Part shown: positions 11,005 to 12,006 of the stretch, piece after piece
Layout: every line of letters begins with the position of its first letter
Numbering within the stretch: the stretch's first letter is position 1
Notes under the pieces: model-generated
Told to the model about the DNA's origin: nothing
The model's input: only the letters and a program-made list of their open reading frames with translations
Database searches by the model: none
Translations under genes and position numbers: made by a program
Assembly (NCBI RefSeq): GCF_021107415.1
Contig: NZ_JAIOSW010000290.1
Location: 1 to 12,272 of the forward strand
Reading direction: 5' to 3'
DNA length: 12,272 nucleotides
Source of the DNA: Desulfobacula sp.
GTDB lineage: Bacteria > Desulfobacterota > Desulfobacteria > Desulfobacterales > Desulfobacteraceae

Positions 11005-12006
11005 ATGGCTTTTAATTTAACAAATAGAAATTTTTTAAAATTGTTAGATTTTACACCAAAGGAAATCAAGTTTTTATTGGATCTTTCCTTTGATCTGAAA
11101 AAAGCAAAATATTGCGGAATAGAACAACCTCGCCTGACGGGTAAAAACATTGCTTAGATTTTTGAAAAATCATCCACTCGCACAAGATGTGCATTTGAAG
11201 TAGCCGCTTTTGATCAGGGGGCACATGTTACATATCTTGGGCCATCCGGATCTCAAATCGGCCATAAAGAGTCTATGAAAGATACTGCCAGGGTATTGGG
11301 AAGGATGTATGATGGAATCCAATACCGTGGATTTGCTCAAAAAACTATTGAAGAATTAGGGAAATACGCTGGTGTTCCTGTGTGGAATGGTCTGACAAAT
11401 GAGTACCATCCAACACAGATTCTGGCGGACTTTTTAACAATGATTGAGCATTCCGACAAATCGCTCAATGACATATCATTTTGTTACATGGGAGATGCTA
11501 AAAACAATATGGGAAATTCTCTCATGGTGGGAGCGGCTAAAATGGGGATGGATTTCAGAGCCGCTGCTCCCAAACAATGTCTTCCCGACAAAACGCTTGT
11601 AGAGGAATGCCGGAAAATTGCAGAAGAAACAGGTGCAAAGATCACGCTGACCGAGAATATCGAAAAAGCTGTCAAAGGTGTCGATTTCATTTATACGGAT
11701 GTCTGGGTTTCCATGGGAGAGGCAAAAGAGGCCTGGGATGAAAGAATTAAACTTTTAACTCCTTATCAGGTGAATCAGAAAGTAATGGATTACACCGGCA
11801 ATAAAAATATTAAATTTATGCATTGTCTGCCGGCTTTTCATGACAGAAAAACGACGATAGGTGAAGATACTTATCAAAAATATGGTTTGGATGCACTGGA
11901 AGTAACTGATGAAGTTTTTGAATCAAGTGCATCAATTGTATTTGATGAAGCAGAAAACAGACTGCATACCATCAAAGCTGTTATGGTCGCAACACTGGGA
12001 AGATAA
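11005..12006 (+). pseudogene. argF: Ornithine carbamoyltransferase interrupted by an in-frame TAG at codon 51
   Basis: The frame from the ATG at 11005 (RBS AGGAG 8 nt upstream) to the TAA at 12004-12006 spans 334 codons, the normal length of the E. coli ArgF/ArgI or catabolic ArcB type. It is intact except for TAG at 11155-11157. Matches: NFLKLLDFTP (9-18), GKNIA (46-50) then the stop, STRTR (57-61), GPSGSQIGHKES, the VLGRMYDG segment, HPTQ, GDAKNNMGNS, D-V-W-V-S-M-G and HCLPAFHD. E. coli has Leu at the interrupted place, so one T-to-A change (TTG to TAG) explains it. Translation restarting at the next in-frame ATG (11275) would lack STRTR and be inactive. The enzyme converts ornithine and carbamoyl phosphate to citrulline, or the reverse when paired with carbamate kinase, as the context suggests (arcB is then the better name). 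It may be a null allele, a sequencing error or a readthrough codon. Confidence 0.9.

Follow-up and report, generated by a model that had tools for sequence, protein, structure and literature searches.

The locus considered here raises the question of why an amber codon stands inside a gene that otherwise looks whole, and whether that codon marks a lost gene, a faulty base or an amino acid. The window, meaning the entire stretch of 12,272 nucleotides that was analysed (Desulfobacula sp., contig NZ_JAIOSW010000290.1), carries close to its end a frame for ornithine carbamoyltransferase (OTC) with TAG as codon 51, and the parts of this frame are:

11005..12006, plus strand: OTC gene of the arcC-linked type (NF003286/PRK04284 subfamily), 334 codons from ATG to TAA, with the amber as codon 51
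11155..11157, plus strand: the in-frame TAG, codon 51, where the relatives have Leu (120 of the best 120 of 8000 scored; 137 of 139 distinct OTC loci)
11005..11154, plus strand: N-terminal piece of 50 codons, the product if UAG means termination
11275..12006, plus strand: open reading frame from the first in-frame restart after the TAG, with an ATG start and 243 amino acids, without the STRTR carbamoyl-phosphate motif

Under the standard code the frame is interrupted, codons 51 and 334 being the only stops between 11005 and 12006, and reading through the first of them yields a protein of 333 amino acids. In a profile search this protein scored above the curated cut-offs of NF003286 (575 bits against 515, the match spanning its full length), TIGR00658 (443 against 281) and NF001986 (326 against 306), and slightly below those of NF002470 (540 against 545) and NF009213 (524 against 559). 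Direct reading of the translation located STRTR, HPTQ, SMGE and HCLP, corresponding to the OTC motifs STRTR, HPTQ, SMG and HCLP; the first codon of STRTR is the sixth one 3' of the TAG. The best sequence match in the PDB is 3upd. Among the best 120 of 8000 relatives scored, identity reaches 93%, and the close relatives include entries named Desulfobacula and Desulfobacterales. The original prediction of an amber at codon 51 of a 334-codon OTC frame, close ahead of STRTR and with the motifs and length otherwise kept, is thus borne out, as the TAG is the sole stop before the terminal TAA, all four motifs are present and three OTC models exceed their cut-offs. It had further claimed that truncation or an internal restart would give no active enzyme, with which the absence of STRTR from the predicted 243-residue product of the ATG at 11275 agrees, and that the metalloprotease is the only gene ending in TAG, which holds for the nine complete genes tabulated, an in-frame TGA following four codons later.

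The sequence around the amber has been maintained as a coding sequence. Compared with the nearest full copy examined (L089, from genome G369; 85% DNA identity), the OTC frame differs at 80 codons synonymously and at 49 non-synonymously, codon 51 being counted among the 49, and the differences fall 37, 13 and 96 times on the first, second and third codon positions. Judged by these differences, the frame apart from the amber is shaped by purifying selection, and the earlier observation that the rest of the gene shows no decay is upheld by the clean frame and the excess of synonymous differences. The coding constraint persists 3' of the amber, as would be equally expected from a very recent mutation, and the absence of other decay implies that the change is either very young or unreal. 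At position 51 itself, all 120 of the best-scored relatives carry Leu, and across the 139 distinct OTC loci the residue is Leu in 137, Ile in one and Met in one, with TAG in none. The corresponding codon in L089 is a Leu codon a single base step from TAG. A conserved pyrrolysine (Pyl) site in OTC was accordingly discarded, position 51 being free of TAG in the relatives examined, and a structured element 3' of the TAG was dropped as an explanation, as the predicted fold there is nothing unusual (z -1.09). A lesion absent from the examined relatives, within a frame that is constrained elsewhere, is the pattern of a recent nonsense pseudogene.

The OTC gene is the fourth in a run of genes that helps to place the organism, and a further gene upstream carries a lesion of its own:

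5629..6330, plus strand: reductase of the yhdH/acuI type, missing 97 internal codons in frame
7864..8817, minus strand: aspartate carbamoyltransferase pyrB, uninterrupted, 89% DNA identity to genome G288
9039..9836, plus strand: regulator of the TrmB family, first gene of the cluster, equally long in relatives (265 amino acids)
9944..10924, plus strand: carbamate kinase arcC, uninterrupted and directly 5' of the OTC gene (TIGR00746, 365 bits, cut-off 358)
12111..12272, plus strand: start of the next gene, which exits the window; 93% DNA identity to contig 226 of G288 over 11953-12272

The order is therefore pyrB on the minus strand, followed by trmB, arcC, OTC and the partial gene at the window edge, and trmB-arcC-OTC recurs in this order in G362, where an aminotransferase (judged by eye) comes next. 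The closest entry in a database search with the TrmB protein is 92% identical. Contig 226 of G288 breaks within the OTC gene and retains only its final 54 bases (end of L119). On the evidence of these few genes, the organism would be placed close to the genus that includes G369, G288 and G264. The pyrB genes of G404 and G405 share 79-80% DNA identity with that of the window, for which reason pyrB and OTC may have been transferred between families, and on sequence comparison the carbamoyltransferase cluster seems mobile between families. In these two genomes, which were drawn as relatives of a Desulfocapsaceae metagenome-assembled genome (MAG), G001, pyrB lies near an OTC gene (L285 and L288). 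A plasmid origin of the window was dropped, as megablast against a plasmid collection returned no match. Between the OTC gene and the next gene, an intergenic stretch at 12021-12089 is predicted to fold into a closing stem around three hairpins; G288 retains this stretch and a comparable fold, the z-scores being only -1.86 and -1.33, and Rfam gave no match.

The profile match of yhdH at 5629-6330 falls into two stretches with a gap between them. Of the 26 genomes in the genus, 20 have matches to the yhdH protein, and in 13 of these, G288 included, the matches listed place both sides within one longer open frame; the frames listed for the genus span 298-380 amino acids overall, the two shortest at contig ends. 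In L338 of G264, which is ~90% identical to the window in yhdH DNA, and in similar relatives, the missing 291 bases (97 codons) are flanked by 12-base near-repeat copies. This deletion is probably an ordinary biological event of slippage between repeats, giving the contig at least one real recent lesion, 4.8 kb from the OTC amber. A deletion at a short direct repeat on the same contig makes a real nonsense mutation in OTC more credible.

Whether UAG could be read as an amino acid was approached through the relatives, using the TIGR02367 profile at its curated cut-off for PylS. PylS exceeded the cut-off in 27 of the 86 genomes of the family of G369 and in nine of the 26 in its genus, and the family search returned an additional PylS fragment below the cut-off in G383. 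G264 holds PylS, PylB and tRNA-Pyl together on one contig. G288 has PylB above the cut-off and a second partial copy, a tRNA-Pyl with a CTA anticodon and a gene resembling mttB whose frame contains a TAG; PylS did not exceed the cut-off in G288, nor did PylS or PylB in G369. The distribution of these genes indicates that the lineage is probably able to decode UAG as Pyl.

TAG is nevertheless still an ordinary stop in G288. The hint in the original prediction that TAG is avoided is not borne out there: the 880 open reading frames of at least 150 amino acids sampled over 1.21 Mb end in TAA 529 times, in TGA 233 times and in TAG 118 times. On account of these 118 endings, a general use of TAG as a sense codon was also discarded for G288. 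In the same 1.21 Mb, stops with coding-like flanks on both sides number 92 TAA, 23 TAG and 15 TGA. Among the 23 TAG sites, mttB alone was judged by eye to be an interrupted gene; of the rest, 20 have a start codon no more than 15 codons away, and the two in L258 and L263 lack one within that distance. ARAGORN found 10 tRNA genes in this portion (1.21 of ~2.8 Mb), of which only tRNA-Pyl has a CTA anticodon, and small pyl loci scanned for tRNAs yielded tRNA-Pyl alone. A selenocysteine (Sec) tRNA is present in the sampled part, and several of the 15 flanked TGA sites resemble selenoproteins. With tRNA-Pyl, an amber mttB, Sec tRNA and selenoprotein-like TGA sites, G288 has the appearance of a dual-code bacterium, the loci being:

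G288 dual-code loci: L149 12913-14433; L223 3700-3772; L128 1547-1644; L144, L146, L252 and L272

The weight of the lesion depends on whether the organism has another OTC. Among the 86 family genomes, the arcC-linked type is found in full only in G369 and G362, neither of which has a second OTC at E <= 1e-30; of the other 84, 74 have an OTC-like match that is more distant and 10 lack one. The argH gene is present in G369 and, as two pieces on separate contigs, in G362, and in each genome the gene identified by eye as argD runs directly into argH without argF (L300 1437-1459; L304 619-635). Nineteen of the 26 genomes in the genus have argD and argH on the same contig with 0.92-1.12 kb between them, which leaves room for argF. 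In G391 argD is joined to argH and a distant OTC lies elsewhere in the genome, and in G288 a contig (L324) ends exactly at the end of argD and argH did not exceed the cut-off. The lack of argF in the arginine operon of both G369 and G362 suggests, on gene order, that the catabolic-type, arcC-linked OTC took over biosynthesis in a non-orthologous replacement of argF. As these two genomes lack both argF between argD and argH and a second OTC, the OTC of the window may be the sole one of its organism, judged from relatives of which many are draft assemblies. A possible sole OTC counts against the gene being dispensable, and its loss would mean the loss of arginine synthesis, which counts against the nonsense reading.

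A second OTC with an internal amber was encountered in the genome collection, at 263-1267 of contig JAOZLO010000026.1 (L001), from the MAG titled Desulfocapsaceae bacterium GMC10.metabat2.28 (G001). This is the best match to the window OTC in that collection; a single TAG interrupts its frame, at codon 18, and the gene also ends in TAG. It is the only row with an in-frame stop among the 111 rows of the OTC alignment, some loci being present twice. Neither PylS nor PylB exceeded the cut-off in its MAG, and the gene was for that reason not accepted as proof of amber tolerance. PylS was detected in two of the 38 genomes drawn as relatives of the MAG (itself included), G404 and G416, so that Pyl in this lineage is conceivable. 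L001 is probably binned correctly, given that a neighbouring gene recurs in G403 and that a short repeat is shared with several relatives; this repeat, of ~40 bases at about 9360-9400 of L001, recurs in several contigs of G001 and its relatives. A TAG followed by 347 open codons in the G001 sample was taken as a putative junction between an apparent substrate-binding gene and a permease. One OTC entry, P0122 (243 amino acids, 89% identity, from a contig of 907 bases), has Met91 as its first residue, exactly like the downstream open reading frame of the window, and could conceal another upstream stop.

On balance we lean, with confidence a little better than even, towards the view that the TAG arose recently, at strain level, as a nonsense mutation within a real OTC gene of a sulfate reducer resembling Desulfobacula, a reading best supported by the Leu of the relatives, the clean remainder of the gene and the second lesion on the contig. 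We infer that the organism terminates translation at this TAG, that the mutation arose recently and that it is present in the DNA itself and not just in a base call. Most ribosomes would then terminate at codon 51 and release a 50-residue stub, restart at Met91 would yield a fragment without the carbamoyl-phosphate motif, and this OTC copy would be inactive or nearly so. Should the organism share the Pyl capability of its relatives, UAG may in part be read as Pyl, which would put Pyl in place of the conserved Leu, and OTC with Pyl at residue 51 would be expected to be mostly non-functional. The probable Pyl capability of the near relatives also counts against a plain nonsense reading. The original prediction had left recent mutation, error and readthrough side by side; recent mutation is now the best supported, and readthrough has moved beyond speculation through the Pyl genes of near relatives, but the amber is shared by none of the relatives examined and falls on a nearly invariant Leu. 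The hint of TAG avoidance is not supported by the stop usage of G288.

A base-call or assembly error at 11156, or the entry of a rare variant into the consensus, is unlikely, if the least so of the alternatives: it draws on an otherwise undamaged gene and on a TAG one base away from the codon of L089, but the yhdH deletion at a direct repeat would be hard to create by assembly, so that the lesions of the contig are presumably real. Somewhat less likely again is a tolerated readthrough, in which tRNA-Pyl reads codon 51 often enough for active OTC and the amber is an unselected product of neutral drift. The frequency of PylS in family and genus, the presence of PylS, PylB and tRNA-Pyl in G264, the tRNA-Pyl, PylB and amber mttB of G288, an OTC that is otherwise intact and perhaps the only one, and the neutral amber mutations described for Pyl organisms in the available text of PMC3639795 all speak for it. 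Pyl would be unlikely to fit a position that holds Leu, or else Ile or Met; the conserved Leu and an amber common to no examined relative keep this reading low, and with them go mttB as the sole amber-interrupted gene recognised in 1.21 Mb of G288, PylS not exceeding its cut-off in G288 or G369, and the unremarkable fold 3' of the TAG. A more demanding version, in which a sole OTC, and hence arginine synthesis and citrulline breakdown, has come by drift to depend on UAG being read as Pyl at a conserved Leu, is quite improbable. Leu-inserting amber suppressors are known in E. coli, and a tRNA-Leu with a CUA anticodon would place Leu at the conserved position and restore normal OTC. Such a suppressor is very improbable here, tRNA-Pyl being the only tRNA with a CTA anticodon in the sampled part of G288 and in the pyl loci scanned; a strong suppressor would presumably also be costly, as TAG is the stop of 118 of the 880 open reading frames sampled in G288.

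As a lone nonsense mutation, the amber has little significance, and the Pyl machinery of near relatives is the sole fact that raises the case above a routine pseudogene. If the recent nonsense mutation that we favour is real and common in the species, its interest lies in Pyl-decoding bacteria showing whether ambers drift into ordinary genes, of which a possibly sole OTC would, on the same proviso, be a clean test. Were dependence on Pyl true, a housekeeping enzyme would be coupled to the Pyl system outside methylamine metabolism.

Set against known systems, the gene resembles the arcC-linked OTCs (NF003286/PRK04284) in its full-length profile match, motifs and adjoining carbamate kinase, and departs from them in a frame broken by TAG. 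It resembles the OTC of L001 (86% identical), in that each has one in-frame TAG, and differs in the position of that TAG, at codon 51 as opposed to codon 18. Desulfobacula-affiliated Deltaproteobacteria with a dual code expansion (Sec and Pyl), represented by bbl-31, are described in the available text of PMC8318568, and G288 is comparable to bbl-31 in size (~2.8 and ~2.6 Mb), with its tRNA-Pyl, PylB, amber mttB, Sec tRNA and selenoprotein-like TGA sites. The Pyl protein named in that portion of PMC8318568 is a trimethylamine methyltransferase, and where the word "ornithine" occurs there, in three places, it refers to a binding protein or to growth medium and not to OTC. A close parallel for an amber in an ordinary enzyme is Thg1 of Methanosarcina acetivorans, a Pyl-containing protein for which neutral evolution has been proposed (PMC3639795 and PMC8211752, as far as the available text of each goes). 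Thg1 is there listed as a Pyl protein, whereas the OTC of the window is known from DNA alone, the Pyl machinery is seen only in its relatives, and the amber sits at a nearly invariant Leu (137 of 139 loci, with one Ile and one Met), where a neutral Pyl substitution of the Thg1 type would be expected at a position that tolerates substitution. The two have in common that the frame of an ordinary enzyme contains an amber, in a lineage that makes, or in the present case probably makes, Pyl.
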